Of a DNA stretch of 64,000 bases, positions 6,005-54,855 are shown piece after piece. Position 1 is the first letter of the stretch; each line of letters starts with the position of its first letter. The notes beneath the pieces were generated by a model. That model worked only from the letters and a program-made list of their open reading frames with translations. It made no database searches and was not told where the DNA came from. The stretch comes from Arthrobacter sp. DNA4 (GTDB lineage: Bacteria > Actinomycetota > Actinomycetes > Actinomycetales > Micrococcaceae), in assembly GCF_024362385.1 (NCBI RefSeq), contig NZ_CP101466.1, positions 1,612,001-1,676,000 of the forward strand. Reading direction: 5' to 3'. The position numbers were made by a program, and so were the translations under genes.

Positions 6005-6649
6005 GTGACTAGCACTGATGCAACCGCCGCCGGTCAGGGCCGTGCCGGGGTCTGGAACCTTCCCAATGTCCTGACCATGATCCGCATCGCGCTGGTCCCG
6101 TTCTTTGTGTGGTTCCTCGTGGCCGATGCGCCCGGGCTGCACAGCACCTCCAGTCCGTGGCGCTGGGCGGCAGTGGCCGCGTTTGCTGTGGCCATCTACA
6201 CGGACAAGCTCGACGGCGACATCGCCAGGAGCCGGAACCTCGTCACCGACTTCGGCAAGATTGCCGACCCCATCGCCGACAAGCTCCTCATCGGCTCCGC
6301 GCTGGTGATGCTGTCCCTGCTGGGCGAACTGCCCTGGTGGGCAACCCTGGTGATCCTGGTCCGGGAATGGGGCGTCACTGCGCTGCGCTTCTTCGTGATC
6401 CGCTACGGCGTCATCCCCGCTTCCCGCGGCGGCAAGCTCAAAACCGTCGTGCAGACCGCGGCAATCTTCCTGTACCTGCTGCCGTTCGGGGCGTTCGCGC
6501 CGTGGATGTCCTGGGTGGCGTTCGCCGTCATGATGGCCGCCGTGGCGATCACGCTGTGGACCGGCGTTGAATACGTGATTGAAGCCCTGCGCCTCCGTGC
6601 GAAGGGCAAGCGGCAGGCAGGGACCGTGGAAGGGCAGGAACAGGCATGA
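6005..6649 (+). CDS. pgsA: CDP-diacylglycerol--glycerol-3-phosphate 3-phosphatidyltransferase
   Basis: Membrane enzyme of the CDP-alcohol phosphatidyltransferase family, making phosphatidylglycerol phosphate for anionic phospholipids. The diagnostic motif DG-x2-AR-x8-G-x3-D-x3-D is complete: Asp70, Gly71, Ala74, Arg75, Gly84, Asp88, Asp92. Four to five hydrophobic segments surround it, and the 214-residue length is slightly above usual because of a polar N-terminus. The related phosphatidylinositol-phosphate synthase is possible from the motif alone, but position next to cinA favours pgsA. Its stop overlaps the cinA start (ATGA). Confidence 0.88.
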   Translation: MTSTDATAAGQGRAGVWNLPNVLTMIRIALVPFFVWFLVADAPGLHSTSSPWRWAAVAAFAVAIYTDKLDGDIARSRNLVTDFGKIADPIADKLLIGSALVMLSLLGELPWWATLVILVREWGVTALRFFVIRYGVIPASRGGKLKTVVQTAAIFLYLLPFGAFAPWMSWVAFAVMMAAVAITLWTGVEYVIEALRLRAKGKRQAGTVEGQEQA

Positions 6650-7235
6650 GCAACCTTCACCAGCTGGCCGCGCAGGCCGTCAGGCAGGCGCTCGAGTCAG
6701 GACGGACCGTTGCCACCGCGGAATCTTTGACGGCCGGGATGGTGTCTGCGGTCCTGGCCGATACGCCCGGAGCCTCCGGCATGCTCCAGGGCGGGGTGGT
6801 GGCCTACCAGAACTCCGTGAAGGACGCGGTGCTGCACGTGCCCGCCGACCTGCTGGCCCGAGCCGGCTCAGTCGACCCCGACGTCGCCCGTGCCATGGCC
6901 GCCGGGGCGCGCACTGTCCTGGGCGCCGACGTCGGGCTTTCCACCACCGGCGTCGCCGGTCCCGAGGCCCACGACGGCAAGCCCGTAGGCCGGGTTTACA
7001 TTGGCATTGCCACGGCTGCGGCACCGCCGGTTTCGAATACACCTTTACCGGCAGCAGGCCGGACATTCGCGCCGCTGCGTGCGGCGCCGCCCTGGAAAGA
7101 CTGCTTGAGGCCCTGGTACTGACCCTCGCAGGCTGTGAAGTTACCGGGCGTAAAGTTGCCGGGAACAAAAGCCGGTACCGATTAGTTATTACATTGTGTC
7201 GCTTCCGGAGAGCGGAGGCGCCTAGGATGAAATGA
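6646..7235 (+). pseudogene. cinA: CinA C-terminal-domain protein (nicotinamide-nucleotide amidase), frameshifted
   Basis: Reading from ATG 6646 gives a clear CinA/PncC amidase start: the TVATAESLTAGMVSAVLAD segment, the GGVVAYQNSVK motif and STTGVAGP near residue 105. At about 7015-7021 the frame is lost. The unshifted product ends at 7122 in an unrelated tail, whereas the other frame continues the family sequence (GTAGFEYTFTGSRPDIRAAA) to a stop at 7235. One extra G at 7020-7021 (GG to GGG) restores a single frame of about 196 residues. The last 35 or so residues of that frame run toward the regulatory region of the next gene and may not be authentic. The start overlaps the pgsA stop. The defect may be a sequencing error. 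Confidence 0.8.
7200..7214 (+). promoter_or_regulatory. Inverted repeat CGCT-N7-AGCG, candidate ClgR operator
   Basis: The palindrome CGCTTCCGGAGAGCG lies 77 bp before the regulator at 7291. ClgR-type sites described in other actinobacteria have the same CGC/GCG half-sites, and ClgR is known to control its own gene, so an autoregulatory site is inferred. Confidence 0.4.
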
Positions 7236-7290
7236 CCAAGACGGGTTCGCCGGCGGCGGACCTGACCAATGAGGGAGCAAGGCGATACAG

Positions 7291-7743
7291 ATGGTAAAGC
7301 AGCCCGTATCCGTAAACGGCGTTGTCCGCTGGAAGGATGTGGGCCTCGCCGAACAGGCTAAGAGCGAACAGAAGGAGCGCAAGATGGTAGTACTTCGTCA
7401 CGAAATCGGTGATGTCCTGCGCGATGTCCGCCAGCGTCAGGGGCGCACGCTCCGTGAAGTTTCGCACAGTGCCCGTGTCTCCCTGGGATACCTCAGCGAA
7501 GTGGAGCGCGGCCAGAAGGAAGCATCATCAGAGCTTCTGTCCTCGATCTGCTCGGCACTGGATGTTCCGTTGTCAAGCATGCTCCGCGAGGTCAGTGACC
7601 GCGTGGCAGTAGCCGAAGGCGTCGCAGTTCCGGACACCGTTCCGCAGGAATTTTCCCAGCGTTACGGCCGTGACCTGGAACGCGACCTCAACACTGAACT
7701 GAACGACGAACTCTCCACGGGCCTCCTCTCCGGCGCCCGGTAA
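7291..7743 (+). CDS. clgR: XRE-family regulator, ClgR-like
   Basis: Helix-turn-helix protein: the Cro/C1 domain spans [17 protein letters not shown] through [18 protein letters not shown], with the recognition helix in [13 protein letters not shown]. ClgR in related bacteria activates clpP/clpC protease and proteostasis genes and is itself a Clp substrate. Two starts are credible: ATG 7291 (150 aa) and ATG 7384 (119 aa). The latter has AAGGAG 6 nt upstream and matches the length of characterised ClgR proteins. The 31-residue extension looks partly coding, so I kept the longer form. It follows cinA, the usual actinobacterial order. Confidence 0.82.
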
Positions 7744-7779
7744 AAGCAGCCCCACCCCAGGGTTGGACCAGGAAACATA

Positions 7780-7810
7780 AGGAAGCCCCCGGCCGTGCCG
7801 GGGGCTTCCT
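7780..7810 (+). terminator. Terminator between clgR and the MarR gene
   Basis: A perfect 14-bp stem (7780-7793 with 7797-7810) and a 3-nt loop, flanked by TAA-rich and TGCTGT sequence. It sits between convergent genes and could serve both strands. Confidence 0.75.
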
Positions 7811-7818
7811 GCTGTCGC

Positions 7819-8361
7819 TTAGTTGTCGGGAGCGTCTTCCTGTGCGGTTGATGCGTCCGCTGTTTCCCTGGCGAACCCGTCACGCTCATAGGTGGAGTTC
7901 AGCTTGGCCATGCACCGGGCCAGTTCCTGCAGGTCCTCCACCGGCCACTCGCGCAACCGTTCCTGGAAGACCTGGCGCCGCGCGTCCTGGACCTGGTGCA
8001 TCTTCTCTTCGCCCTTCGGCGTCAGCCGGATGGACTGCGCCCGGCGGTCCAGGGGGTCCGCCTCCTTGGACACCAGGCCCAGGCTTTCCAGGAAGGCAAT
8101 CTGCCGGCTGACAGACGGCTTGCCCACCCCGATGTTCATGGCAAGATCGGTGAGCCGGATGGGTCCTTCCCTGCGGATAACCGTCAGGAGCCCATACGCG
8201 GCAGGCTCCATGTCCGGATGGACCTCGCGCGAGAGCTGGTTGGAGATGGCCCGGGCCCGCCGCCAAAAGAGGCTGATCTGGTGTTCGACATTCTGCAGCG
8301 CGGCGTCGGCGGCGTCGTTGCCTTTGTCCTGCCGCGGCGGGAGATCCGGGGAGTTGCTCAT
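7819..8361 (-). CDS. MarR-family transcriptional regulator
   Basis: Winged-helix regulator of 180 residues. The DNA-binding part reads IRLTDLAMNIGVGKPSVSRQ, followed by the wing with DPLDRRAQSIRLTPKGEE, which is characteristic of MarR proteins. N- and C-terminal helices would form the dimer interface. Ligand and targets cannot be deduced. An in-frame ATG at 8388 exists, but the ATG at 8361 has a TAGAAT hexamer ending 7 nt upstream on the minus strand, which fits a leaderless start. It is divergent from DUF3046/recA with only 41 bp between starts. Confidence 0.88.
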   Translation of the reverse strand: MSNSPDLPPRQDKGNDAADAALQNVEHQISLFWRRARAISNQLSREVHPDMEPAAYGLLTVIRREGPIRLTDLAMNIGVGKPSVSRQIAFLESLGLVSKEADPLDRRAQSIRLTPKGEEKMHQVQDARRQVFQERLREWPVEDLQELARCMAKLNSTYERDGFARETADASTAQEDAPDN

Positions 8362-8368
8362 GGCAACA

Positions 8369-8374
8369 ATTCTA
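8369..8374 (-). promoter_or_regulatory. Candidate -10 element of the MarR gene
   Basis: On the minus strand TAGAAT ends 7 nt before the ATG at 8361. No Shine-Dalgarno sequence is present. Confidence 0.5.
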
Positions 8375-8402
8375 GGGTCCGCAATCATGAGAGGATTTAC
8401 CG

Positions 8403-8627
8403 ATGCGAATCAGCGAGTACTGGCGTCTCATGGATGACGAGTTCGGTGCGGGGTACTCCCGCATGCTGAGCAGTACCCTGGTCCTTGCCGGCGTAGGCGG
8501 GCGCACCGCTGACCAGGCCCTGGCCGCGGGCATTGAACCGCGGAGGGTATGGCTTGCTGTCTGCGACGTCCAGGACGTCCCGGCGGAACGGCGGCTCGGG
8601 CGCGACATCGCCCCGCGCCGCGATTGA
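8403..8627 (+). CDS. DUF3046 family protein
   Basis: A 74-residue protein beginning MRISEYWRLMDDEFG with the motif RTADQALAAGIEPRRVWLAVC. This small family of unknown function is found next to recA in many actinobacteria. GAGAGGA precedes the ATG by 7 nt. It lies 226 bp upstream of recA, and the recA promoter and SOS box are in between, so it is probably transcribed separately. Confidence 0.85.
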   Translation: MRISEYWRLMDDEFGAGYSRMLSSTLVLAGVGGRTADQALAAGIEPRRVWLAVCDVQDVPAERRLGRDIAPRRD

Positions 8628-8696
8628 CGGCGGGGCCGGCCTTGACGAGGGCGGCCGGGATCCTTCCTCCTGACACGCCGCAGGAACTCCACTCTT

Positions 8697-8724
8697 CGAA
8701 TACCTGTTCGGATAAGGCTATGCT
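8697..8724 (+). promoter_or_regulatory. recA promoter with SOS box
   Basis: CGAATACCTGTTCG at 8697-8710 matches the Gram-positive/actinobacterial LexA site CGAAC-N4-GTTCG at all but one position. A possible -35 (TTCGAA, 8695-8700) overlaps it, and TATGCT at 8719-8724 is a candidate -10 with 18-bp spacing. LexA bound here would cover the -35. Confidence 0.75.
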
Positions 8725-8853
8725 TTTTCCATCGGGTTTATCCACATAACCGTCGTCCTCCGGCCGGAATGTCAGTGGGTCCCCTTAGCGTCAGAGATGA
8801 CCAATAAAACGGCCGCGTAGGCCACCATCGAGAAAGCATTAGAGGTGTCAACC

Positions 8854-9909
8854 ATGGCGGCAGCCCCGGATCGTGCAAAAGCGCTGGAAGCAGCGCTGGC
8901 CCAGATTGACAAGCAGTTCGGCAAGGGCTCGGTCATGCGCCTGGGCGACGAAGTCCGTGCCCCGATCGAAACCATCCCCACGGGCTCCATCGCCCTGGAC
9001 GTGGCCCTCGGCATTGGCGGGCTCCCGCGCGGCCGCGTCATCGAAATCTACGGTCCGGAATCCTCGGGTAAAACCACCGTTGCCCTGCACGCCGTGGCGA
9101 ACGCCCAGCGCGCCGGCGGGATCGCAGCCTTCATCGACGCCGAGCACGCACTGGACCCCGACTACGCCGCCAAGCTGGGCGTGGACACGGATGCCCTCCT
9201 GGTCTCGCAGCCGGATACCGGTGAGCAGGCCTTGGAGATCATGGACATGCTGGTCGGCTCCGGCTCGCTGGACGTCATCGTCATCGACTCCGTGGCCGCC
9301 CTGGTGCCGCGCGCTGAAATCGAAGGCGACATGGGTGACAGCCACGTCGGCCTCCAAGCACGGCTCATGAGCCAGGCACTGCGTAAGATCACCGGCCGCC
9401 TGAGCCAGACCAAGACCACCGCCATCTTCATCAACCAGCTCCGCGAAAAGATCGGCGTGTTCTTCGGTTCCCCGGAAACCACCACCGGTGGTAAGGCGCT
9501 GAAGTTCTACGCGTCGGTCCGCATCGACGTCCGGCGGATCCAGACCCTCAAGGAAGGCGCCGATTCCGTCGGCAACCGGACCAAGGCGAAGATCGTCAAG
9601 AACAAGATGGCTCCGCCTTTCAAGGTCGCCGAGTTCGACATCATCTACGGCCAGGGCATTTCCCGTGAGGGTGGCATCATCGACATGGGCGTGGAGCACG
9701 GCATCATCAAGAAGTCCGGCTCCTGGTTCACCTACGACGGTGACCAGCTGGGCCAGGGCATGGAGAACTCGCGCCGGTTCCTCCGCGACAACCCCGAGCT
9801 GGCTGCCGAGCTGGAGCGCCTCATCAAGGAGAAGCTCGGTGTCGGGGTCAAGCCGGCGGAGGATGAGTCCAAGGACGCGCCGAAGCTGAAAGCTGTCGAC
9901 GGGTTCTAG
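8854..9909 (+). CDS. recA: Recombinase RecA
   Basis: Strand-exchange ATPase and co-protease for LexA cleavage, 351 residues. Walker [10 protein letters not shown] is at residues 67-75. The DNA-binding loop stretch [20 protein letters not shown] and the conserved [15 protein letters not shown] region ([14 protein letters not shown]) are intact. ATG 8854 was chosen over GTG 8845 because AGAGG lies 8 nt upstream. recX follows after 3 bp. The upstream SOS box shows it is in the LexA regulon, together with lexA at 19 kb. Confidence 0.98.
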
Positions 9910-9912
9910 CCC

Positions 9913-10529
9913 TTGACCGGACCACGAACACGGCGTTCCCGTTCCGGCACCTCCTCAACAGGGGTGCCGGACGGGTATGCAGTCCCTGAAGACCCGCAGG
10001 CCGCGGACGCCGAACCGGACCCGTTCACGGTGGCGCAGGCCATCGTGTACCGGCAGCTGACGGCGGCGCCCAAGAGCAGGCTGCAGCTTGCCCGGAAACT
10101 GGCCGAACGGAACATCCCGGAGCACGTCGCGGAGGCGGTGCTGGACAAATTCCAGGAAGTCCGGCTGATCAACGACGCAGAATTCGCTGACATGTGGGTC
10201 AGGAGCCGCGCCCAGTCCCGCAAGCTGGCCAAGGCGCGCTGAGGCGTGAGCTCGCGGAAAAGGGCATCGACCAGGAGACAGCGGCGTCAGCGCTGGAACA
10301 ACTGACTGACGCCGATGAGGAGTCCGCCGCGCGCGCCCTGGTTGAGCGCAAGCTCCGGCCCGGAACGGACCTGTCCGGTCCCGGGGAACGGGACAAGGCA
10401 GTGCGGCGCCTGGCGTCCATGCTGGCAAGAAAGGGTTACCAGCCCTCGCAGGCGTTCCGGATCGTCAACGATGTCCTCGATTCCCAGCAGGACCCCGACA
10501 GCGGGGGCCTCCAAAGCCGGTACCCTTAA
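9913..10529 (+). pseudogene. recX: Regulatory protein RecX, frameshifted
   Basis: RecX inhibits and modulates RecA filaments. The first frame (TTG 9913; a GTG at 9963 is an alternative) contains the typical start of the domain, AQAIVYRQLTAAPKSRLQLA and LINDAEFADMWVRSR, and stops at 10242 after LAKAR. The second half, ALRRELAEKGIDQETAASAL through RKGYQPSQAFRIVND, is in another frame ending at 10529. Inserting one G at 10233-10234 (AAGGCG to AAGGGCG) joins them into about 205 residues with the conserved KGALRREL junction. So either recX is broken or the base call is wrong. It directly follows recA. Confidence 0.87.
10521..10526 (+). promoter_or_regulatory. Candidate -10 element of miaB (leaderless type)
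   Basis: TACCCT, inside the end of recX, ends 6 nt before the GTG at 10533. Confidence 0.4.
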
Positions 10530-10532
10530 CGG

Positions 10533-12089
10533 GTGAGTTTGACCATTCCTTCCCCCCAACCCGGCACCACCCCTTCCGTCGAAGCAGGGGCCGCGCCGCA
10601 AACCGGAGGCCTGCCCCGCACCTACCAGGTGCGCACCTTCGGCTGCCAGATGAACGTCCACGACTCGGAACGGATGTCCGGCCTGCTCGAGGCCGCGGGC
10701 TACGTCCCGGCCGAGGGCGAGCATGCCGACGTCGTGGTCTTCAACACGTGCGCGGTCCGGGAAAACGCGGACAACAAGCTCTACGGCAACCTGGGCATCC
10801 TGGCCCCCGTGAAGGCGGCCAACCCCGGCATGCAGATCGCCGTGGGCGGTTGCCTGGCGCAAAAGGACCGCGAGACGATCCTGAAGAAGGCGCCATGGGT
10901 GGACGCAGTCTTCGGTACCCACAACGTCGGTGCCCTTCCCGCCCTCCTGGACCGGGCGCGGCACAACAATGAAGCGCAGCTGGAGATCCTGGAATCCCTG
11001 GACGTCTTCCCGTCAACGCTGCCAACCAAACGTGACTCCGTTTACTCGGGCTGGGTGTCCATCTCCGTGGGCTGCAACAACACCTGCACCTTCTGCATCG
11101 TGCCCGCCCTCCGCGGCAAGGAAAAGGACCGCCGGCCCGGAGAGATCCTCGCCGAGATCCAGGCACTCGTGGACGACGGCGCCATTGAAGTCACCCTGCT
11201 CGGCCAGAACGTCAACTCCTACGGGGTGGAATTCGGGGACCGGCAGGCATTCTCCAAGCTCCTGCGTGCCTGCGGAGAGATCGAGGGGCTCGAACGCGTC
11301 CGGTTCACCAGCCCGCACCCTGCCGCCTTCACGGATGACGTCATCGACGCCATGGCAGAGACGCCGAACGTGATGCCGCAGCTGCACATGCCGCTGCAGT
11401 CCGGATCGGACAGCATCCTCCGGGCCATGAAGCGTTCCTACCGGTCCACCAAGTTCCTGGGCATCCTGGACAAGGTCCGCGAAAGGATTCCGCACGCCGC
11501 CATTTCCACCGACATCATCGTCGGCTTCCCGGGCGAAACGGAAGAGGACTTCCAGGCCACCCTGGACGTGGTGGAAAAGTCCCGCTTCGCCACCGCCTTC
11601 ACCTTCCAATATTCAAAGCGTCCCGGCACGCCCGCGGCCGACCTGCCCGACCAGCTTCCCAAGGCCGTGGTCCAGGAACGCTTCGAACGCCTCACCGCCC
11701 TGCAGGACCGCATCGCCGCGGAGGAAAACCGGAAGCAGCTAGGCCGCCGGCTCGAAATCATGGTGACCGCACAGTCCGGGCGGAAGTCGGAGGAAACCCA
11801 CCGGCTGTCCGGCCGGTCGCAGGACCAGCGCCTGGTTCATTTCTCGGTGCCGGAGGGCGCACCTGCCCCCAGGCCCGGGGACCTCGTCACTGTCACCATT
11901 ACCGAGGCCGCGGCTTTCCACCTGGTCTCCGACCCGACGCCTGGGGACTACAGCCTTCGTCGTTCACGGGCAGGGGACGCGTGGGACAGGTCCCAGGCCG
12001 ACTCCTGCGGAGCGCCGGTCCCCGGTTCCGGAGAGGCACGAAAGGGCGTCTCCCTCGGCATGCCCTCACTGCCGCTGCGCACCCGCTGA
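10533..12089 (+). CDS. miaB: tRNA-2-methylthio-N6-dimethylallyladenosine synthase
   Basis: Radical SAM methylthiotransferase modifying A37 of tRNAs that read U-starting codons. The N-terminal UPF0004 cluster cysteines are Cys38, Cys73 and Cys107. The radical SAM CxxxCxxC is Cys181, Cys185, Cys188 (GCNNTCTFC), followed by the conserved [15 protein letters not shown] domain ends the conserved region (about residues 395-460). The 518-residue length includes a poorly conserved polar C-terminal extension of some 50 residues. miaA, which makes the substrate nucleoside, follows after 3 bp, so the two act in sequence. Confidence 0.95.
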
Positions 12090-12092
12090 CAG

Positions 12093-12989
12093 GTGGCTGC
12101 CCCGCCCGTCATCGCCGTCGTCGGTCCCACCGGCTCCGGAAAGTCCGACCTCGCCGTCAACCTTGCCCTCGAACTGGACGGCGAGGTCATCAACGCCGAT
12201 GCCATGCAGTTCTACCGCGGCATGGACATCGGCACCGCCAAGATCACGGTGGCCGAGCGCAGGGGAGTGCCGCACCACCTCCTGGACATCCTGGACGTGA
12301 CCCAGGAAGCCAGTGTTTCCGACTTCCAGGCCCAGGCGCGCGAAACCATCGACGACATCCATGGGCGCGGCAAGCGCGCCATCCTGGCAGGGGGCTCCGG
12401 GCTGTACGTCCGGGCCGCCCTGGACGTCCTGGAATTCCCGGGGACCGACCCTGCGCTGCGTGCCCGGCTTGAGGCGGAGCACGCGGAACTCGGCACAGGC
12501 GAACTCCTGGGCAGGCTCCGGAGGGTGGATCCCACCTCCGCCTCCCGGGTCTCCGATGCCCGGCGCATCATCCGCGCGCTGGAGGTCCACGAACTCACCG
12601 GGCGCCCCTTCAGCTCCTTCATGCCGCGGAGGGAGTACCACCAGCCCGCCGTCCAGGTGGGCCTCGGCGTGGACCGCGGGGTTTTGCGGGACCGGCTGGC
12701 AGCGCGCGTGCACCGGATGGTGGACGCCGGCCTGCTGGAGGAGGTCCGGATGCTCGATGCCAAAGGCCTGCGCCGCGGCAAAACCGCATCCCGCGCCCTG
12801 GGCTATGCACAGTTCCTGCGGGTCCTCGACGGCGCCTCCACCGTTGAGGCTGCCGCGGAAGAAACCATCGTGGCCACCCGGCAGTTTGCCCGGCGGCAGT
12901 TGACCTGGTTCCGCGCCGATCCCCGCATCACGTGGCTGGACTGGCAGGATCCGGAGCTCGTGGGCAAGGCAGCGGAGTTGTGCCGGTAG
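12093..12989 (+). CDS. miaA: tRNA dimethylallyltransferase
   Basis: Adds the dimethylallyl group to A37 of tRNA, the step before MiaB. The 298-residue product has P-loop GPTGSGKS near residue 11, the substrate motif [16 protein letters not shown] near 38-53, the PHHLLDI motif and a C-terminal [14 protein letters not shown]. The start is GTG 12093, 3 bp after miaB, which implies co-transcription. dapF follows with what looks like its own promoter. Confidence 0.95.
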
Positions 12990-13020
12990 CTGCGGTTTCA
13001 GGACCGGCAGCACCCGCCGC

Positions 13021-13026
13021 TACGCT
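13021..13026 (+). promoter_or_regulatory. Candidate -10 element of dapF (leaderless type)
   Basis: TACGCT ends 7 nt before the ATG at 13034. Confidence 0.5.
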
Positions 13027-22846: not shown

Positions 22847-23026
22847 ATGTGGCCCGTACTCCTGACGGGCCTCGCCGGCCTGCTGATTGGCGGCGGCATC
22901 TCGTTCCGGCAGCAGCGCAAGCCCCTCTGGACCCAGGTGGCCTTTTATGTCCTGGCCGCCATGTCGCTGGTCGCCGCCTACCTGCTCACGCTGCGGCTGA
23001 TCCAGGGGCTCTGCGGCCCTGCCTGA
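22847..23026 (+). CDS. Small two-helix membrane protein in the his cluster
   Basis: The ATG at 22847 immediately follows the hisH stop, and the frame gives 59 residues. Two hydrophobic segments ([18 protein letters not shown] and [19 protein letters not shown]) flank a basic loop RQQRKPLW, predicting a hairpin membrane protein. Third codon positions are G/C-rich as in neighbours, which supports coding. I do not know its function. A role linked to histidine synthesis is not implied beyond co-transcription. Confidence 0.7.
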
Positions 23027-26184: not shown

Positions 26185-26571
26185 CTAGTTCACGGCTCCG
26201 GTGTACTTTTCACCCGGGCCCTTGCCCGGTGCGTCCGGAATCAGCGACTCTTCCCGGAAAGCCAGCTGCAGGGACCGCAGGCCGTCGCGCAAGGGCCCTG
26301 CGTGCTGGGAACCGATCTCCGGGGCCGCCGCGGTCACCAGGCTTACCAGTGCGGTGATCAGCTTCCGGGCCTCGTCGAGGTCCTTGAGTTCGGCTGCGTT
26401 GTCCTCTGCGGCCAGGCCAAGCTTTACCGCGGCCGCGCTCATCAGGTGCACGGCGGCCGTGGTGATGACCTCGATGGCGGGAACTTCGGAGATGTCGCGG
26501 ATCTGTTGTGAAACGTCTGCGCCTGCTTCGCCGGGCTCGAAGACGTACGAATTACTGTCTGAGGTGCTCAT
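26185..26571 (-). CDS. DUF1844 family protein
   Basis: A 128-residue protein with the family core VITTAAVHLMSAAAVKLGL and LDEARKLITALVSLVTAAAP. DUF1844 proteins are small and helical, of unknown function, and are often encoded beside infC in actinobacteria, as here, where it is divergent from infC. The start is ATG 26571. Confidence 0.88.
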   Translation of the reverse strand: MSTSDSNSYVFEPGEAGADVSQQIRDISEVPAIEVITTAAVHLMSAAAVKLGLAAEDNAAELKDLDEARKLITALVSLVTAAAPEIGSQHAGPLRDGLRSLQLAFREESLIPDAPGKGPGEKYTGAVN

Positions 26572-35907: not shown

Positions 35908-38451
35908 GTGCGTATCCCACTTTCCTGGCTGCGGGAATTCGCAGCAGTACCGGCCGGAGCAACGGCCGAAGACGTTATGGAAGAACTGGTCAAGGTCGGC
36001 TTTGAAGAAGAAGCCGTCCACCGTCCCACGGACACCCTCCAGGGCCCCGTGGTGGTGGGCCAGGTCCTGAGCCTGGTCAAGGAACCGCAGACCAACGGCA
36101 AGACCATCAACTGGTGCCAGGTCCGCGTTGTCCCCGAAGGCAAGGAACAGACCCTCACCGGAGACGGAATCGACCCGTCCGGCGTCCAGGGCATCATCTG
36201 CGGAGCGCACAACTTCGTTGAGGGCGACAAAGTGGTGGTCACGCTTCCGGGCGCCGTGCTGCCCGGCGACTTCCGCATCTCCGCCCGCAAGACGTATGGC
36301 CACCTTTCCGCCGGCATGATCGCCTCGGTCCGCGAACTGGGCATCGGCGAGGACCATGACGGCATCCTGGTGCTGTCCCGCATCGGGCTGGACCCCGAGG
36401 TGGGCACCGACGCCATGGAGCTCCTGGGCCTGTACGACCAGGCTGCCGAAATCAACGTCACCCCGGACCGCGGCTACGCCTTCTCCATCCGCGGCGTGGC
36501 CCGCGAATACGCGCACGCCACCGGGACCGCCTTCACGGATCCCGCATCCAGGGTCCAGGCACCGGCCGAACTTTCCGGCGGCTACGGCGTCAAGCTCAAC
36601 GACGACGCGCCCATCTACGGCAAGGCCGGCTGCGACCGGTTCGTGGCCCGCACCGTCAGGGGCGTGGACGCCACCCGGCCCACCCCGCCATGGATGGTCT
36701 CCCGGCTCCGGCTCGCCGGCATCCGCTCCATCTCGCTGCCGGTGGACATCTCCAACTACGTCATGCTCGAACTGGGCCAGCCCACGCACTGCTATGACCT
36801 GGACAAGCTCTCCGGCGACATCGTGGTGCGCCGCGCCTCCGCAGGGGAGAAGATCACCACCCTGGACGGCAAGGAACGCACCCTTGACGCCGAGGACCTG
36901 CTCATCACGGACGACTCCGGCGCCATCGGCATCGCAGGTGTCATGGGCGGTGCCGCCACCGAGGTGAGCGACTCGACGTCGAACATCCTGGTTGAGGCGG
37001 CGCACTTTGACGACGTGTCCATCGGCCGCTCCCGGCGCAGGCACAAACTGCCGTCCGAGGCGTCCAAGCGCTTCGAGCGGGGCGTGGACTGGCAGGTGGC
37101 AGGCGTCGCCGCCCAGCGCGTGGTTGACCTCCTGGTGGAACTGGTAAGCGGCACCGCTGACGAAGCGGGAACCGACGTCGGGACTGCCCCGGACACCGTC
37201 ACCATCGACTTGCCGGCGGGCTTCGCCGCCGCACGGATCGGCATCGACTTCACCGGGCAGCAGATCGTCACCTCGCTTGAGGACCTCGGGGCCGTGGTGG
37301 TAAAGCACGACGCCGGGTGGACGGTTACGCCGCCGAGCTGGCGGAGCGACCTGGAGACCAAGGAAGACCTGACCGAGGAAATCGCCCGCCTGGTGGGCTA
37401 CGACAAGATCCCCGCCACCCTGCCGGTCGCCCCTCCGGGCCGTGGACTGACGCGCGTCCAGCAGCAGCGCCGCCGCCTGATCCAGGCCCTGGCGGACGCC
37501 GGACTCACCGAGGTCCTCTCCTACCCCTTCGTGTCCAAGGCGGCCAACGACACCTTCGGCGTGGCTGATGAAGGAGGGGCGCGGACCGCCCTCAAGCTGG
37601 CCAACCCGATCAGCGAGGAGCACGGCTACCTGCGCACGTCCATCCTGCCCGGCCTGATCGAGGTGGCCAAGCGCAACCACTCCCGTGGCTTCCGGGACCT
37701 GGCCCTGTTCGAATCCGGCCTGGTGTTCCTGCCCGGGGGGACAGTGGGCACAGCCTCCATCCCGCCGCTGGGCGCCAAGCCTGCCGACGAGGTCCTTGAC
37801 GCACTGTACGACGGCGTCCCCAACCAGCCATTCCACATCGCGGCAGTCTTCACCGGCCACGATTCCCCGGCCGCCGCGTCCCACACGCCCCGTGCGTGGG
37901 ACTGGGCCGACGCACTGGACGTGGCCCGGCTTGCCGGCGACGTGCTGGGCGTTGACCTGGTGGTCAGCCAGGGCAGCCACCAGGCGTTCCACCCCGGCCG
38001 CACCGCCCGGCTGGCGCTGCGCACGGGGGAGACCGTTGGCTACGCCGGCGAACTGCACCCCAAGCTGCTGGCCGCCTCGGACATGCCCGCCCGTTCGGTG
38101 GCACTGGAACTTGACGCCGATGCCCTGTTCGAAGCCGCACCGGACGTGATTGTGGCCCGCCACATTTCCACGTTCCCGGTGGCCACCCAGGACGTGGCGC
38201 TCGTGGTCCCCGCCGACGTGCCGGCAGACGAGGTCCTTGCCGCCCTGCGTGAAGGCGCCGGAGAACTGCTGGAAGACGTGGCCCTGTTCGACGTTTACGC
38301 CGGCAAAGGCATCGAAGAAGGCAAGAAGTCGCTGGCCTTCGGGCTCCGGTTCCGGGCCGCCGACCGCACCCTGACCGCTGACGAGGCCTCGGCGGCGCGT
38401 GAAGCCGCAGTCGCGCTGGCCGCCGAACGCTTCGGAGCTGTCCAGCGCTAG
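35908..38451 (+). CDS. pheT: Phenylalanine--tRNA ligase beta subunit
   Basis: An 847-residue subunit with an N-terminal tRNA-binding OB domain (VVGQVLSLVKEPQ through GICGAHNF-type segment IICGAHNFVEGDKVVV), the B3/B4 editing domain, two B5 domains, a degenerate class II core and a C-terminal anticodon-binding FDX domain (ISTFPVATQDVALVV). The start GTG 35908 gives MRIPLSWLREFAAV, the conserved N-terminus. A terminator follows. Confidence 0.97.
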   Translation: MRIPLSWLREFAAVPAGATAEDVMEELVKVGFEEEAVHRPTDTLQGPVVVGQVLSLVKEPQTNGKTINWCQVRVVPEGKEQTLTGDGIDPSGVQGIICGAHNFVEGDKVVVTLPGAVLPGDFRISARKTYGHLSAGMIASVRELGIGEDHDGILVLSRIGLDPEVGTDAMELLGLYDQAAEINVTPDRGYAFSIRGVAREYAHATGTAFTDPASRVQAPAELSGGYGVKLNDDAPIYGKAGCDRFVARTVRGVDATRPTPPWMVSRLRLAGIRSISLPVDISNYVMLELGQPTHCYDLDKLSGDIVVRRASAGEKITTLDGKERTLDAEDLLITDDSGAIGIAGVMGGAATEVSDSTSNILVEAAHFDDVSIGRSRRRHKLPSEASKRFERGVDWQVAGVAAQRVVDLLVELVSGTADEAGTDVGTAPDTVTIDLPAGFAAARIGIDFTGQQIVTSLEDLGAVVVKHDAGWTVTPPSWRSDLETKEDLTEEIARLVGYDKIPATLPVAPPGRGLTRVQQQRRRLIQALADAGLTEVLSYPFVSKAANDTFGVADEGGARTALKLANPISEEHGYLRTSILPGLIEVAKRNHSRGFRDLALFESGLVFLPGGTVGTASIPPLGAKPADEVLDALYDGVPNQPFHIAAVFTGHDSPAAASHTPRAWDWADALDVARLAGDVLGVDLVVSQGSHQAFHPGRTARLALRTGETVGYAGELHPKLLAASDMPARSVALELDADALFEAAPDVIVARHISTFPVATQDVALVVPADVPADEVLAALREGAGELLEDVALFDVYAGKGIEEGKKSLAFGLRFRAADRTLTADEASAAREAAVALAAERFGAVQR

Positions 38452-45684: not shown

Positions 45685-48323
<2,639 letters not shown>

Positions 48324-48338
48324 GAAACATTGTTGGCA

Positions 48339-48367
48339 GGGCCCCGGGGCATGTTCCCCCGGGGCCC
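48339..48367 (+). terminator. Terminator of the arg operon
   Basis: An 11-bp GC-only stem (GGGCCCCGGGG and its complement) with a 7-nt loop, followed by TTGG, shortly after argH. Confidence 0.75.
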
Positions 48368-48381
48368 TTGGCGTCTGTGGC

Positions 48382-48387
48382 TAGGCT
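48382..48387 (+). promoter_or_regulatory. Candidate -10 element of the PNPOx-like gene
   Basis: TAGGCT ends 6 nt before ATG 48394. Confidence 0.45.
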
Positions 48388-48393
48388 GGGGCC

Positions 48394-48942
48394 ATGAGCG
48401 AAACCTTCCGCAAGTTCCTTCGCACCCTGCCCGACTTCCCGTCCGACCTGCCCGGCTTCGACCCGGCCAACGCGCCGCAGGACCCGGCGTTGCTCTTCAA
48501 ACAGTGGCTTGACGAGGCACTGGATGCGGGGGAGCAGCAGCCGCACGCCTTCAGCCTGGCCACGGTAGCTGCGGGGGACGGGGACGCCCCGCAGCCTTCT
48601 TCGCGGATGCTCATCCTGAAGAACATTGACGACGACGGCTGGCACTTCGCCACGTCCCGCACCTCCCGCAAGGGCCGCGAGCTGTCGGAGTCACCGCGCG
48701 CGGCGATGAACTTCTACTGGCCGGGCCTGGGCCGGCAGGTCCGCGTGGTGGGCACCGTGGTTGAGCTTTCCGCCGAAGCCTCCGCCGTCGACTGGCACGA
48801 GCGGCCCCGGGCCGACGGCAGCGACAACCCGGACTGGCAGCTCTACGCCCTCCAGCCGGTCGAAATCGAGTTCTGGCAGGCCAGCAACGACCGCCGGCAC
48901 GTCCGCCACCGTGTCGGGCGGGACGGAAGCCCGCTGGACTGA
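48394..48942 (+). CDS. Pyridoxamine 5'-phosphate oxidase family protein
   Basis: A 182-residue FMN-binding split-barrel protein. The FMN-contacting stretch SSRMLILKNIDDDGWHFATS, SRKGRELSESPRAAMNFYW and the C-terminal LQPVEIEFWQ resemble PdxH, which makes pyridoxal 5'-phosphate. It is some 30 residues shorter than classic PdxH, and the end (HRVGRDGSPLD) diverges from the usual RLAP tail. It may therefore be a PdxH-like enzyme with other flavin chemistry. Confidence 0.8.
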   Translation: MSETFRKFLRTLPDFPSDLPGFDPANAPQDPALLFKQWLDEALDAGEQQPHAFSLATVAAGDGDAPQPSSRMLILKNIDDDGWHFATSRTSRKGRELSESPRAAMNFYWPGLGRQVRVVGTVVELSAEASAVDWHERPRADGSDNPDWQLYALQPVEIEFWQASNDRRHVRHRVGRDGSPLD

Positions 48943-48951
48943 CTGCTCGGC

Positions 48952-48957
48952 TAGGCT
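48952..48957 (+). promoter_or_regulatory. Candidate -10 element of the isomerase-fold gene
   Basis: TAGGCT ends 6 nt before ATG 48964, the same arrangement as at 48382. Confidence 0.45.
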
Positions 48958-48963
48958 GGCCGC

Positions 48964-49701
48964 ATGACCTCACCTTCCCCTGCCGCCCTCCTCGCTGAAC
49001 TGCACAAGGCCGCGGACGCGCTGACCGCTGCGGTGGACCGGATTCCAGCCGGCGGCGAAAGGGATCCGTCCACCCTTCCCGGCTGGAGCCGCGGCCATCT
49101 CCTGGCCCACATCGCCGGCATCTGCGGCGCGCTGGCCCGCCAGGTGGAATACGGGCGGTCGGGCAGGACGGTGGAGCTGTACGACGGCGGCGTGGACGGC
49201 CGCAACCGGGCCATCGAGCTTGCCGCCGGCCACAGCCTGGAGGAGCACCGGGAAGACGTAGCGGCCGCGGTGCAGCGGGCACTGGCGGCCTTCGAAGGGC
49301 TGGGGGAGGACGAATGGCAGACGCGCATCGCCTTCCGCGACGGCGTGATCTTCGACGCCGGTTTGGCGCTCTGGCGCGAGCTGGTCATCCACACCGCGGA
49401 CCTGGACACCGGCGCGGGACCCGAGACCTGGAACAGGGCATTCTGCTCCCACCTCTTCGACTTCCTCGCCGCCCGCGTGCCGGCGGAAAGCCGGCTGGTC
49501 CTGCAGCCCGTGGCACTCCCGCCGCTGACCCTCGGAACCGGCGGCAGCACCGTCGTCGTCAGCGGGATGGTGACGGACATCGCCGCGTGGCTTTCAGGCC
49601 GGCAGCCGTCGCTGGACAGCCTGCGGGCCACTGCCGCCGGGGACGGCACCGATCTTCCCGGCCTGCTGCCCTGGCCGTCGGCCATGCCCGACCCGAAGTA
49701 G
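48964..49701 (+). CDS. Maleylpyruvate isomerase family mycothiol-dependent enzyme
   Basis: A 245-residue protein of the DinB/MDMPI fold. The N-terminal four-helix part includes LPGWSRGHLLAHIAGICGALAR with a conserved histidine, and the second metal-ligand region WRELVIHTADLD. Such proteins use mycothiol as cofactor in actinobacteria. The substrate of this member is unknown, since no gentisate pathway genes are nearby. It lies 21 bp after the PNPOx-like gene but seems to have its own -10. Confidence 0.82.
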   Translation: MTSPSPAALLAELHKAADALTAAVDRIPAGGERDPSTLPGWSRGHLLAHIAGICGALARQVEYGRSGRTVELYDGGVDGRNRAIELAAGHSLEEHREDVAAAVQRALAAFEGLGEDEWQTRIAFRDGVIFDAGLALWRELVIHTADLDTGAGPETWNRAFCSHLFDFLAARVPAESRLVLQPVALPPLTLGTGGSTVVVSGMVTDIAAWLSGRQPSLDSLRATAAGDGTDLPGLLPWPSAMPDPK

Positions 49702-49708
49702 CCATTCG

Positions 49709-49767
49709 TTGCTCCATCACCTTTGGTCCCTAAACCGGGGTTTTAGGGACCACAAGTGATGGAGCAA
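49709..49767. repeat. 59-bp imperfect palindrome (REP-like)
   Basis: Outer arms TTGCTCCATCAC and GTGATGGAGCAA (12 bp) and inner arms TGGTCCCTAAA and TTTAGGGACCA (11 bp) are separated by 3-nt internal loops, with a 7-nt apical loop. It lies between the convergent isomerase-fold gene and ogt. It has no T run and its AT-rich arms differ from the GC-rich terminators of this genome, so a mobile palindromic element is considered. Confidence 0.7.
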
Positions 49768-49790
49768 CCCAGGGGCAGGGGAGGGAGTGG

Positions 49791-50285
49791 TCAGGCGGCC
49801 TCGCGGGCCAGCAGGCTCTCCTTGACTCGCAGGCCCCAGCGGAAACCGCCCAATGAGCCGTCGGTCCGGATGACGCGGTGGCACGGCACGAACAGGGCAG
49901 CCGCGTTGAACGCGCAGGCACTGGCGGCGGCCCGCACGGCGCGCGGGTTGCCGGTCAGGGCGGCGTACTCCGAGTAGGTGACGGGTGAGCCCGGCTTGAC
50001 CTGCCGCAGCACATCCCAGGCGTGGGCACGGAACGGTCCGGACTGCTGGCGGACCGGCACCGCCATGGCCGGGGCCGGGTCACCGGCATAGAAGGCCTCC
50101 ACGGCGGATGAGATCCCGGCAAGATCCGTTACCTCTTCCACGGCGTCGGGCCGCAGCGCTGGATGGACCTGGCCGGTCAGTTCGGCCAGGCCGGCCGTCC
50201 AGCCGGACGCAAGGACCACGCCATCCTGGGCAAGGACAGTAAACGGACCGTCCGGCGTGGACAGCTGCAGCAGTTGGGCTTTCAT
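49791..50285 (-). CDS. ogt: Methylated-DNA--protein-cysteine methyltransferase
   Basis: Suicide repair protein for O6-methylguanine, 164 residues. The acceptor is Cys135 in FVPCHRVIR, with the DNA-binding helix YSEYAALTGNPRAVRAAASA and an arginine finger. ATG 50285 overlaps the ada-alkA stop (ATGA) and has AAAGGGACGCC upstream, so it is the second gene of an alkylation-repair operon. Confidence 0.95.
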   Translation of the reverse strand: MKAQLLQLSTPDGPFTVLAQDGVVLASGWTAGLAELTGQVHPALRPDAVEEVTDLAGISSAVEAFYAGDPAPAMAVPVRQQSGPFRAHAWDVLRQVKPGSPVTYSEYAALTGNPRAVRAAASACAFNAAALFVPCHRVIRTDGSLGGFRWGLRVKESLLAREAA

Positions 50286-51760
50286 GGCGTCCCTTTCGCG
50301 GGAATGGTGTTTCTTGTGGCGGGCCGGGCGGCAGCGCGCCAGAGATGCATGGTGGCGTAGGAGCGCCACGGGCTGGTCTCCCGGAAGTCCGGGCTCAGGT
50401 GGTTGGTTCCATTATCGAGGGCGCGGATCCCGTTCCGCACGGCGGCGTCGTTGGCAAGGAAAATGTCCGGGGCGCCCAGGACCCGCATGGCGACGTACCC
50501 CACCGTCCAGGGCCCGACGCCGGGGAGCGGCAAAAGTGCCGCGGTGAGGCTTGGGAGGTCGTCGCCGTAGCCGAAGTCCAGGCGGCCGCCGGTCATGGCC
50601 TCCGCAGCAAGCAGCAGCGACTCGGTCCGGCGCTTTGGTCCGCGAAGCAAGTGACCTGCAGCTGCGACTTCCGCCGGAGTGGGAAACAGGCGGTCCAGGC
50701 CGTCGCCGGGGGCACTGGCGGGACTGCCCGCCGCGGACAGCTGGGTCAAGGCTGTCCTGGCGGCCGCCACCGTGATCTGCTGGCCCACCATGGCCCGGAT
50801 CAGCAGTTCCTGCGGATCCACCGCGCCCGGCAGGCGCATCCCCGGTGCGGCGGCAACGGAGCCGACAAGCCTGGGATCGGCGGCGAGCGTGCCGTCGATC
50901 GCCTCCGGGTCCGCATCCAGGTCGAACAACCGGCGGACGCGGCTGAGCAGCGCCGGAAGGTCGCGAAGGTCCACCGCGCCGATGGTGAGGGTCAACGGCC
51001 GTTCCCGGGCCCCGTCGTCGTACTCCACCCTGAAGCGCGCGTCGCCGTGGGGGAGCCGCAGCGTCCGGGCATAGGAAGTGGGTGTGCCGTCCTCGACTCC
51101 GGGGATGGCGCGGACCGCCAGGAAGGAGAAGATGCCCGGATCGAAAGGCGGCCGGTAGGGCAGGCCCAGGGTCAGGGCTGTGGCGCCGGTGACGGGCGCA
51201 GAATGGCGGACGGTCCTCCTGAGCGCCGTGGGCGTCATATCGAACACCTCGGCGATGGTCTCGTTGAACTGCCTGACGCTGCTGAAGCCTGCCGCAAAGG
51301 CGACGTCGGCGAGTTTCATCGATGTTGAAACCAGCAGGGTGCGGGCCGTCTGGGCCCTGGCGGCGCGGGCCAATGACAGGGGACCGGCGCCAAGCTCCTG
51401 GCCGAGGATCCGGTTCAGCTGGCGCGGCGAATACCCCAGCCGGGCGGCCAGGCCCGCCACGCCGTCGCGGTTGATCACGCCATCGTTGATCAGGCGCATC
51501 GCGCGCCCCGCGATGTCCTGCCGCACGTTCCAGGCCGGGGTGCCTGGGACCGCCTCCGGCAGGCAGCGCTTGCAGGCGCGGTAGCCTGCCTCGTGCGCTG
51601 CGGCGGACGTCTCGTAGAACGTGACGTTGGATGCCTTGGGGGTCCGGGCGGGGCAGGAGGGCCGGCAGTAGATCCCGGTGGTGCGGACGGCCGTGAAGAA
51701 CTGGCCGTCGAACCGGGTATCACGGGCATCGATTGCCCGGTAGCGCTGCCAGAAGTCCAT
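50282..51760 (-). CDS. AdaA-AlkA fusion: methyl-phosphotriester sensor, AraC regulator and 3-methyladenine glycosylase
   Basis: A 492-residue three-part protein. Residues 1-75 form the Ada zinc module with Cys32, Cys36, Cys63 and Cys66 at the same spacing as Cys38/42/69/72 of E. coli Ada, so Cys32 is the expected methyl acceptor. Residues about 85-185 are an AraC helix-turn-helix pair (LGYSPRQLNRILGQ, LADVAFAAGFSSVRQFN). The rest is AlkA with an HhH motif (LLPLPGVGPWTVGYVAMRVLG) and an aspartate after it (PDIFLANDAAVRNG). It resembles mycobacterial alkA (Rv1317c), which precedes ogt, and likely self-activates after methylation. Confidence 0.93.
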   Translation of the reverse strand: MDFWQRYRAIDARDTRFDGQFFTAVRTTGIYCRPSCPARTPKASNVTFYETSAAAHEAGYRACKRCLPEAVPGTPAWNVRQDIAGRAMRLINDGVINRDGVAGLAARLGYSPRQLNRILGQELGAGPLSLARAARAQTARTLLVSTSMKLADVAFAAGFSSVRQFNETIAEVFDMTPTALRRTVRHSAPVTGATALTLGLPYRPPFDPGIFSFLAVRAIPGVEDGTPTSYARTLRLPHGDARFRVEYDDGARERPLTLTIGAVDLRDLPALLSRVRRLFDLDADPEAIDGTLAADPRLVGSVAAAPGMRLPGAVDPQELLIRAMVGQQITVAAARTALTQLSAAGSPASAPGDGLDRLFPTPAEVAAAGHLLRGPKRRTESLLLAAEAMTGGRLDFGYGDDLPSLTAALLPLPGVGPWTVGYVAMRVLGAPDIFLANDAAVRNGIRALDNGTNHLSPDFRETSPWRSYATMHLWRAAARPATRNTIPAKGTP

Positions 51761-51877
51761 GCCTCCATCCTGCCAGCCGCCGGTCACTGCTTCTAGCGGA
51801 AATCGGACATGGCCGTGGTCGCACAGAACCACCCCGAACCCCTTTTCCGGTGGCGGATGAAACCTGCGGGATCTGGG

Positions 51878-51883
51878 TAAGGT
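51878..51883 (+). promoter_or_regulatory. Candidate -10 element of mpg
   Basis: TAAGGT ends 6 nt before ATG 51890, supporting that start over ATG 51911. Confidence 0.45.
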
Positions 51884-51889
51884 CACGTC

Positions 51890-52578
51890 ATGAACCAAAG
51901 CGCTGGGGCAATGGCACTGCTTCGGGAATTCCTGTCCGCGGACGCCCGGGAACTCGCACCAAAGCTGCTCGGTGCCGTGCTGACCCATGAGTCCCGCGAC
52001 GGTGCCGTCTCCGTCCGGCTCACCGAGTTGGAGGCCTATATGGGCCCCGAGGACTCCCTGCACCCCGACCCCGGCTCCCACACCTGCCGCGGCCCCACGC
52101 CCCGCAACGCCCCCATGTTCGGCCCCGCCGGTCACCTCTACGTCTACTTCACTTATGGAATGCACCACTGCACCAACATCGTGTGCGGTCCGGCCGGCGT
52201 CGCGTCCGCCCTGCTGCTCCGGGCAGGGGAAGTGGTGGACGGGCTGGAGCTGGCCCGGCTGCGCCGTCCGACGTCCAAAACTCCTGCGGACCTTGCCAGC
52301 GGGCCGGCACGCCTTGCCAAAGCGCTGGGATTGACGACGGCGGACAGCGGCCGGGATGCGCTGGCTCCGCCGTTCCGGCTGGAACTTCCGTCCGCTCCCG
52401 CCGGCGCGGTCAGTTCCGGTCCCCGGGTGGGGGTGGTAGCGCCGGAGGCACTGACGAATACGCCTGGCGGTACTGGCTCACCGGCGACCCCACCGTGTCC
52501 AGATACAAGGCAGCGAAGCCGCGGACCCGGAAGCAGGCAGCGGAACACCGGCCGGATGCAACGTTTCACCTGCGTTAA
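51890..52578 (+). pseudogene. mpg: DNA-3-methyladenine glycosylase (AAG/Mpg family), frameshifted
   Basis: The first 180 residues are clear AAG family: LLGAVLTHESRDGAVSVRLTE, the EAYMGPEDSLHP catalytic region, TPRNAPMFGPAGHLYVYFTYG and CNIVCG-like CTNIVCGPAG. At about 52431-52440 the frame is lost. The original frame continues with unrelated sequence to 52630, while the alternative frame carries the expected end, GGTDEYAWRYWL, stopping at 52578. One extra G at 52435-52436 restores a 229-residue enzyme. It is divergent from ada-alkA, making a compact alkylation-repair cluster. Confidence 0.87.
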
Positions 52579-52629
52579 CGGAAATGGTTGTAGAATGGAC
52601 GGTCTGTCTTTTGCGATAGGGGAACGTTA

Positions 52630-54855
52630 ATGCTTGACGCCGAATTGGCCCACGAACGGGAGTACGTAGCCGGTCTGTACGCCCGGCTGGAGGAACTCCG
52701 GGAGGAAAAGCGCCGCCAGCTGGCGCAGGTCCGTCGTGCCGGAGCCGTGGGCACCATGCAGAACGTTTCGGAGCGGGACGCTTTCGCCGCACTGTATGAG
52801 GACCGCCTGGCGCAGCTGGACGCCGTGGATGACCGGCTGGTTTTTGGCCGCCTGGACCTGGACTCCGGCGAAGCGCAGTACATCGGCCGCATTGGCCTCA
52901 CCACCGAGGACCTGCAGCGTCTCATGGTGGACTGGCGCGCCCCCGAGGCCGGGCACTTCTACCAGGCCACGGCCTTTGACCGGCAGGGCGTCCGCCGCCG
53001 CCGGCACCTGATCCTGCAGGGACGCGAGGTCAAGGCCATCGAGGACGATGTCCTGGACGCCGGGATGCTCACGGACGACGAGTCGCTCCAGGGCGAAGGT
53101 GCCCTGCTGGCTGCCCTGAACTCCAAGCGGACCGGCCGCATGTCGGACATCGTCAGCACCATCCAGTCGGAGCAGGACCGGATCATCCGCTCCTCCATCT
53201 CCGGCGCCGTCGTGGTCCAGGGCGGCCCCGGCACGGGCAAGACCGCCGTGGCCCTGCACCGCGCCGCCTACCTGCTCTATACCCACCGTGACCGCCTCAA
53301 AAGTGCCGGCGTGCTGCTGGTGGGGCCGTCGTCGTCGTTCATGAAATACATCGAACGCGTGCTGCCCTCGCTGGGCGAGACCGGCGTGGTCATGGCCAGC
53401 CTTGGCCGCCTGATGCCCGGCATCCACGCCGTCCCGGAAACAGATGCTGACGTCGCCGCCATCAAGGGGCGCCTGGACATGGCCGCCATAGTGGCCAACG
53501 CCGTTTCCAACCGCATGCGCGTCCCCGCCCAGAACCGGATCCTCGAAGTGGACGGCCGCAAGCTCACCCTCACGCCCCGGCAGGTGCGCCGCGCGCGCGA
53601 ACGTGCCCGCGCCACCGGCAAGCCGTACAACGAGGCCCGCGTGACGTTTGTGAAGATCCTGCTGCGCGAACTGACGGAACAGATGACCGAACTCGTCGAA
53701 GCCGGAAACATCGGCAACAACGCGGACCGCTCGTACCTTGCCGAGGACGTCCGGACCGCCCGCGACGTCCGGATCGCCCTGAACCTGTGCTGGATGCCCA
53801 TGACGCCGGAGAAGCTGATTTCCGACCTCTTCAGCAGGCCGGAGGTGCTGGAATTCTGCACCCCGAACCTGACCCCGGCCGAGCGGGCGCTGCTGCAGCG
53901 CCCGGCCGATGCGCCGTGGACCGAGTCCGACGTCCCGCTCCTGGATGAGGCCGCCGAGCTGCTCGGTGAGCTGGACCCGGCGGCAGGCCGCGGATTGGCC
54001 CAGCAGGAGCACGACCGTGCCCGGGACCTCGCCAACGCAAAGCAGACCCTGGTCAACATGGAGGCCGCCGGCGTCGATCCATTGATGTCCGCTGAAGAAC
54101 TGGCGGAGCAGAACCGGGAGCAGGAGGCCCGGCAGACGGCGGCCGAACGCGCAACGAGCGACCGCACGTGGGCCTTCGGGCACATCGTGGTGGATGAGGC
54201 CCAGGAACTTTCGCCCATGCAGTGGCGTCTGCTGGTGCGCCGCTGCCCGCTGAAGTCCTTCACCATCGTGGGCGATATTGCCCAGACCAGTTCCGTTGCC
54301 GGGGCCAATTCCTGGCAGGGGGCGCTGGCCCCGATGTTCGGCGACCGCTGGCAGCTGGAGGAGCTGACCGTCAACTACCGCACCCCGTCCCAGATCGCCG
54401 AGGCTGCCGTCAGGATGGCCAACGCCGCGGGCCTGGTGGTCTCCGCACCCAAGGCTGTCCGGGAGGGCCGCTGGGCCCCCATCATCGACGAAGTGTCCGC
54501 GGCGGCATCGTGGACCGGCTGGTGGAGGTCCTTCCGGAGGAGCTTGCGGCGCTCGACGGCGGCCTGCTCGCCGTGATTGCCGACGGTGACCTCCTGCCCC
54601 AGGCAACGGCGGCCCTCCGCGCCGTATACGGCCGCAGGATCGGCTCCGGGGCGCAGCTATGAGCAGGACATCGTGGTCATCAGCCCGCGTGAGGCAAAGG
54701 GCCTGGAGTTCGACGGCGTCGTGGTCCTGGAACCGTCCGTGATGCTCAACCACGAGCACGGCAAAGTGGGGGACCTCTACGTGGCCATGACCCGCGCCAC
54801 GCAACGGCTGCGGCTGATTGCGGCGCAACCCGTGCCCGCCGGTATTGCCGGCTGA
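52630..54855 (+). pseudogene. helD: HelD/HelR-type RNA polymerase-recycling ATPase, two compensating frameshifts
   Basis: UvrD-like superfamily 1 ATPase with an N-terminal coiled coil (ELAHEREYVAGLYARLEELR) that in HelD enters the polymerase secondary channel. Walker A is GGPGTGKT at 198-205, Walker B DEAQ at 522-525, and the closing motif is VAMTRATQRL. The main frame runs to 54576. The conserved sequence switches frame at 54501-54502 (one G missing) and back near 54649-54652 (one G too many). With both corrected, the protein is about 741 residues, the normal size for actinobacterial HelD. As given, it would be truncated before the C-terminal ATPase motifs. HelR-type members can displace rifampicin. 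Confidence 0.85.

Follow-up and report, generated by a model that had tools for sequence, protein, structure and literature searches.

The window analysed here is a stretch of 64,000 nucleotides from Arthrobacter sp. DNA4, whose Arthrobacter/Pseudarthrobacter chromosome is a single contig of 4.56 Mb in an assembly of 99.98% completeness. It contains cinA, recX, mpg and helD, as well as one of the five ribosomal RNA (rRNA) operons of the chromosome (Table 1). The four genes lose their reading frames, and the initial annotation of the window had explained this by systematic base-call or consensus errors, all of them single-G changes in short G runs. Our results strongly support a systematic error of a different form. 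Apart from that of recX, the lesions are tied to the word GCCGGC, at which similar damage recurs throughout the genome and reaches each of the five rRNA operons, its form varying between copies. We think, with a probability of roughly 0.87, that they are systematic consensus miscalls at modified GCCGGC sites in native long reads, probably nanopore reads.

Frame breaks in four genes

The names given to the four genes are correct, and the loss of frame near the positions first proposed is borne out by relatives, which lack the breaks. In named genomes, the top HelD matches (80 loci kept) all come from Arthrobacter, Pseudarthrobacter or Paenarthrobacter, and mostly from soil bacteria. Alignment with relatives, the check that the initial annotation had suggested, gave a continuous frame in every matched locus for RecX (20/20, from 29 given), Mpg (79/79, from 80 given) and HelD (80/80, all given). 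CinA, matched in 20 of 29 loci, is 150 residues or longer in 19 of these and has 102 in the remaining one. In the displayed alignments, relatives carry letters opposite the gap of the window in 8 of 8 cases shown for cinA and recX (10 given) and in 10 of 10 for mpg and helD. A stricter gap table, in which gap placement varies, contains the gap for 16 of the 20 loci covering recX and for 72 of 80 at the second helD place, the first helD place lying below its listing threshold.

The uniformity of the lesions, which had been taken as a pointer to error, is not found. A single-G change in a G run fits only one of the six lesion places, that of recX, where the displayed relatives read AAGGGC and the run has changed in length. 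At the other five, the nearest relative genome (G034, about 96% identical across 60 kb of the window) reads GCCGGC (cinA 7018, mpg 52436, helD 54499 and 54651) or TCCGGC (cinA 7116), and several lesions in the four genes are multi-letter replacements. The second cinA lesion, at about 7116-7119 and two letters short, had been overlooked. Together the two cinA lesions restore the frame, which makes 7120-7122 the natural stop codon; the corrected CinA of 196 residues proposed earlier reads past this true end, the median in relatives being 159 (n=20) and the G034 protein also having 159. Likewise, the second helD site is not one G too long but two letters shorter than in relatives, although the net compensation of the frame within helD holds as proposed. 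The lengths predicted for RecX (205 residues) and HelD (741) agree with those of relatives (205 and 742), and the 229 residues predicted for Mpg equal the G034 protein but exceed the median of 218 over the 79 loci.

Additional lesions of the same kind occur elsewhere in the window and outside it. A protein of 362 residues in G034 is split here between three frames, at 126105-127180 when the numbering of the window is continued past its end. Three of its lesions lie at GCCGGC; another, at 126329 of the extended sequence and about 62 kb beyond the window, falls in a run of C. This cytosine-run change resembles the recX lesion, and both would fit generic length errors in short G runs, independent of any motif, as first annotated. 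Such errors are very improbable as the general cause, since five of the six lesion places lie at CCGG in G034, several lesions replace more than one letter, and the GCCGGC places of the rRNA genes show both substitutions and deletions. The recX lesion itself is a separate G-run indel and probably also an error, of a plain sort that is likely in such an assembly. As recX is dispensable in many bacteria, a real loss of this gene alone would be possible.

Damage at GCCGGC within and beyond the window

The motif comparison with G034 covered 114 kb of aligned sequence (the window and parts of the following 100 kb) and was made word by word, a place being counted as damaged when two or more letters were changed or an indel was present. 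G034 has 275 GCCGGC places in this sequence, of which 171 are intact here, 72 show a single-letter change and 32 are damaged. In the reciprocal test (GCCGGC here, damaged in G034) only 6 of 226 places are found. In the window alone, the GCCGGC words of G034 are kept at 102 of 153 places, compared with 80% for hexamers generally. Among the NCCGGN words the asymmetry is restricted to GCCGGC and look-alikes are spared, which rules out a wider CCGG motif. The pentamer CCGGC has the lowest p of 495 pentamers (4.9e-7), and this value survives correction.

Of the 32 damaged places, thirteen match GTAAGC or GCTTAC (its reverse complement) exactly, compared with none of the six in the reciprocal set, and on the strand that reads GTAAGC the word is preceded by TG in 9 of the 13. 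A milder class, GCCGGCC changed to GCCGGTC, is seen at 14 of 155 places here and at 0 of 103 in the reciprocal direction. Some of the 32 damaged places are natural divergence, and the milder class may in part be real variation. A second relative, G055 (92% identity in the first search), was used for polarising the changes in ungapped words of the window, with small counts: GCCGGC shared by G034 and G055 is kept here at 58 of 80 places, whereas GCCGGC shared by this genome and G055 is present in G034 at 58 of 66. At the damaged site between hisH and hisA-trpF, a minus-strand frame of 1000 codons in G034 was taken as antisense noise, as these two genes flank the site.

A genome-wide signature was provided by TGGTAAGC, part of the commonest miscall (GCCGGC read as GTAAGC/GCTTAC). 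It occurs 392 times in this genome (182 + 210 by strand) and 14-76 times in each of 60 genus-mates, an excess of about tenfold, and its reversed control word has an ordinary count of 65. Among 294 other genomes of the family, a sample that overlaps the genus sample, the maximum is 83. GCTTAC taken without flanks is mildly high (1264 vs 1099 for its control word, counted in this genome alone). By rough extrapolation from 26-49 excess changes per 114 kb, about one to two thousand places would be miscalled genome-wide. GTAAGC words at 62753-63228 were excluded from the count as units of a tandem array. This array, at 62645-63228 of the window, has units of 24, 75 and 144 bases and a coding look; it lies in a frame of 355 codons (62463-63530) that matched no Pfam family.

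A base caller or assembler performing poorly at GCCGGC, with no base modification involved, could produce a motif-bound signature too, and this would agree with the clean sequence of a relative, G028, that carries nearly the same methyltransferase as this strain (see below). We consider it unlikely. The excess is found in this genome only, out of 61 genus and 295 family genomes, an argument that is weak if this assembly alone was left unpolished. The damage pattern is not seen at GC-only palindromes such as GGCGCC, CGGCCG and CCGCGG. Moreover, methylated sites typically have just this shape, that of an exact palindromic hexamer.

rRNA operons as an internal control

The rRNA genes hold four GCCGGC places in G034, which gives 20 copy-sites over the five operons of this chromosome. 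At 19 of them the word is not GCCGGC but GCTTAC, GCTAC, GTAGC, GTAAGC, GTAC, GCGC, GCAGC, GCCGGT or a shorter form. The damage includes substitutions and deletions, and at three of the four places the copies disagree in form. Among the five 16S genes, differences are confined to the two GCCGGC places and to a single letter (56753) in one of the copies; the copies of 23S and of the spacers also vary away from GCCGGC, which is partly ordinary variation. The forms GTAGC of mpg, GTAC of cinA and GCGC of helD recur among the rRNA copies, but GCGGC, found in cinA and helD, does not.

At the second 16S place, the letters are CGG in the Rfam consensus and UUA in the window. The word is GCCGGC in all seven relative loci whose 16S covers the stretch (four further loci had no 16S match). 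Among 61 genomes of the genus, 46 others hold the stretch and read GCCGGC in 146 of 146 copies, compared with 0 of 5 in this genome; the 14 genomes that matched neither 16S word are uninformative. These data bear on the possibility that the changes are real, by gene decay or by a mutational process at GCCGGC such as restriction cleavage followed by inexact end joining. A motif-bound mutational process would be just as specific, and some of the GCCGGCC to GCCGGTC changes as well as the recX loss could be real. Nevertheless, we regard this explanation as scarcely credible: no 16S copy keeps a word that is invariant in the 46 other genomes, the forms differ from operon to operon, the one signature is seen hundreds of times over, and, judging from the Rfam consensus, a ribosome with CCGG replaced by CTTA in a conserved 16S stretch should not work. 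The decay of repair genes, raised as an alternative in the initial annotation, is rejected on the same grounds, the lesions being tied to GCCGGC and all five 16S copies being hit; the one exception is recX, whose lesion could be a simple indel.

Other differences among the operons were noted. The spacer between 23S and 5S (61928-62050 of the window) varies among the five operons, and the window copy alone has an insert on the scale of 18 bases with a short inverted repeat. In 23S, at 60321-60340 and 60475 of the window, the window copy and three others differ in short blocks from G034 and from the copy at 0.82 Mb; these blocks could be either real variation or further errors.

Table 1. Genes, lesions and further features, in window positions except for the last row
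Feature	Position	Strand	Remarks
cinA, CinA/PncC amidohydrolase family	6646..7122	+	written with 158 codons; frame lost between its two lesions; natural stop 7120-7122
cinA lesion 1	7018..7022	+	GCGGC here, GCCGGC in G034
cinA lesion 2	7116..7119	+	GTAC here, TCCGGC in G034; GTAC also replaces GCCGGC in two 23S copies
recX	9913..10529	+	split into two frames (9913-10242, 10194-10529); G-run lesion near 10233-10235, off the motif
mpg, DNA-3-methyladenine glycosylase	51890..52630	+	246 codons as written; frame change at 52436-52440, GTAGC here, GCCGGC in G034
helD/helR-type RNA polymerase recycling ATPase	52630..54855	+	two frames as written, 52630-54576 and 54577-54855
helD lesion 1	54499..54503	+	GCGGC here, GCCGGC in G034
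helD lesion 2	54651..54654	+	GCGC here, GCCGGC in G034
16S rRNA, first GCCGGC place	56989..56994	+	GCCGGT in window copy; GCCGGC in 1/5 copies
16S rRNA, second GCCGGC place, conserved CGGCUAAcu stretch	57182..57187	+	GCTTAC in window copy; GCCGGC in 0/5
23S rRNA, GCCGGC place	59040..59045	+	GTAAGC in window copy; GCCGGC in 0/5
23S rRNA, GCCGGC place	59140..59145	+	GCTTAC in 5/5 copies
Site between hisH and hisA-trpF	22993..22997	+	GCGGC here, GCCGGCCGGC in G034; five letters shorter
Substitution site	26341..26346	+	GCTTAC here, GCCGGC in G034
In-frame substitution inside pheT	37144..37149	+	GTAAGC here, GCCGGC in G034
Substitution site	63533..63538	+	GTAAGC here, GCCGGC in G034
Defence-type locus	C1:1150466-1159183		DruL4-like and DruF4-like genes on minus strand, then C5-methyltransferase (DruM2/Type II), 468-codon frame, SNF2-type helicase, NOV_C-domain protein

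Proposed modification of GCCGGC and its candidate enzyme

Since five of the six lesion places lie at CCGG in G034 and, among the NCCGGN words, only GCCGGC is asymmetric, the error is motif-linked and probably modification-linked. The exact palindromic hexamer, the single affected genome and the many output forms point to a modified base that disturbs the long-read signal. We infer that the palindrome carries a base modification in this strain. The modified word would often be read as GTAAGC/GCTTAC, in shortened form as GTAGC, GCTAC, GTAC, GCGGC or GCGC, or as GCCGGT before C. The pooling of reads would fail to remove the error, resulting in false frameshifts, substitutions and corrupt rRNA in the assembly, while the genes of the cell itself would stay intact. 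A modification is likely; its type and the enzyme responsible are uncertain.

This kind of artefact is already known. In Listeria, according to the available text of Chiou et al. 2023 (PMC10687267), modification-mediated nanopore errors number in the thousands, lie in each lineage at a single short motif (GCAGC or GCTGG) and are absent in related strains. The errors described there resemble ours in being consensus errors that cluster at one short motif and are missing from relatives. They are mostly mismatches, established with Illumina and amplified-DNA controls, whereas here the motif is GCCGGC, deletions are frequent and the evidence comes from relatives and rRNA copies. The accessible portions of Lohde et al. 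2024 (PMC11610573) report methylation-induced ambiguous positions in nanopore assemblies of Klebsiella and other species, in RA/TY context; these miscalls are also strain-specific, motif-linked and found on both strands. They consist of purine-purine or pyrimidine-pyrimidine confusion. Our errors depart from this transitions-only RA/TY class by the transversion in GCTTAC/GTAAGC (a G becomes T where GCCGGC is read as GCTTAC) and by the loss of letters. The same hexamer is the target of M.NgoAIV in Neisseria (PMC12871193) and of a methyltransferase in Aeromonas hydrophila NEB724 (PMC8565308), and the available parts of both reports describe no consensus error at it. Our literature search, largely at title level, found no report of GCCGGC as a consensus-error site. 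The GCCGGC motif and the read-free demonstration in rRNA are the new part.

A profile search with PF00145 found one C5-cytosine methyltransferase in the genome, and this gene is absent from G034 and G055. The protein scores 766 bits with a Type II methyltransferase model (MTase_II) and 732 bits with the PADLOC model DruM2, and its neighbours are DruF4-like (776 bits) and DruL4-like (208 bits) genes. It resembles Druantia systems, in the sense of the PADLOC models, in that a DruM2-matching C5-methyltransferase adjoins DruF4- and DruL4-like genes; it differs in that the general Type II model scores slightly higher, the assignment here being based on the DruM2, DruF4 and DruL4 models alone. The 468-codon frame of the locus matched no family. 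The C5-methyltransferase is an unproven candidate for the modifier of GCCGGC. Two PF01555 methyltransferases were set aside, as they resemble adenine-type enzymes (RsrI, CcrM; Type III Mod). A genome carrying a 92% identical methyltransferase (G049) was considered as a second affected genome and dropped, its 16S near tyrS matching over 122 bases only, in a stretch with N runs, and so being uninformative. Beyond the window, about 18 kb at C1:1705566-1723991 have no match in the G034 stretches compared; a Type III methyltransferase gene lies inside, and the frame at the left edge resembles a phage integrase on visual inspection.

Several observations weigh against miscalling at a modified GCCGGC. 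G028 carries the methyltransferase at 98% identity, yet its 16S is intact and its count of TGGTAAGC is ordinary (44), and 14 more carriers of relatives of the enzyme in the family sample (E <= 1e-100) also show ordinary counts. Base callers are trained on 5-methylcytosine (5mC), as stated in the available text of the Listeria study (PMC10687267), and nanopore 5mC calls at GCCGGC in Neisseria come with no mention of error in the accessible part of that report (PMC12871193). Taken together, these two points suggest that plain 5mC may not suffice. The hexamer GCCGGC, in spite of having the lowest p of 1359 hexamers (1.3e-4), fails correction on its own; the TG context is not decisive, as TG also precedes 13 intact places; and the recX lesion is not at GCCGGC. 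Finally, the word is intact at 1 of 20 rRNA copy-sites, compared with 171 of 275 aligned places; our guess is that polishing effective in unique sequence but not in repeats could explain this contrast.

It is tempting to speculate, although we hold it doubtful, that the Druantia-like C5-methyltransferase or another enzyme places an uncommon mark, other than plain CpG 5mC, on GCCGGC throughout the chromosome, and that the errors are the fossil record of this so far unrecognised modification system. If this were true, rRNA copies disagreeing at one word only could reveal such marks in public assemblies, with no need for reads.

In summary, an assembly that passes a completeness test has wrong rRNA in all five operons. 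The annotation of a genome of this kind would contain false gene losses, in the present case of repair genes, and reference sets would receive a corrupt 16S from it. A set of five rRNA operons in one assembly provides a read-free test that separates motif-linked miscalls from biology, and the miscalled word itself hints at the DNA modification of the strain.

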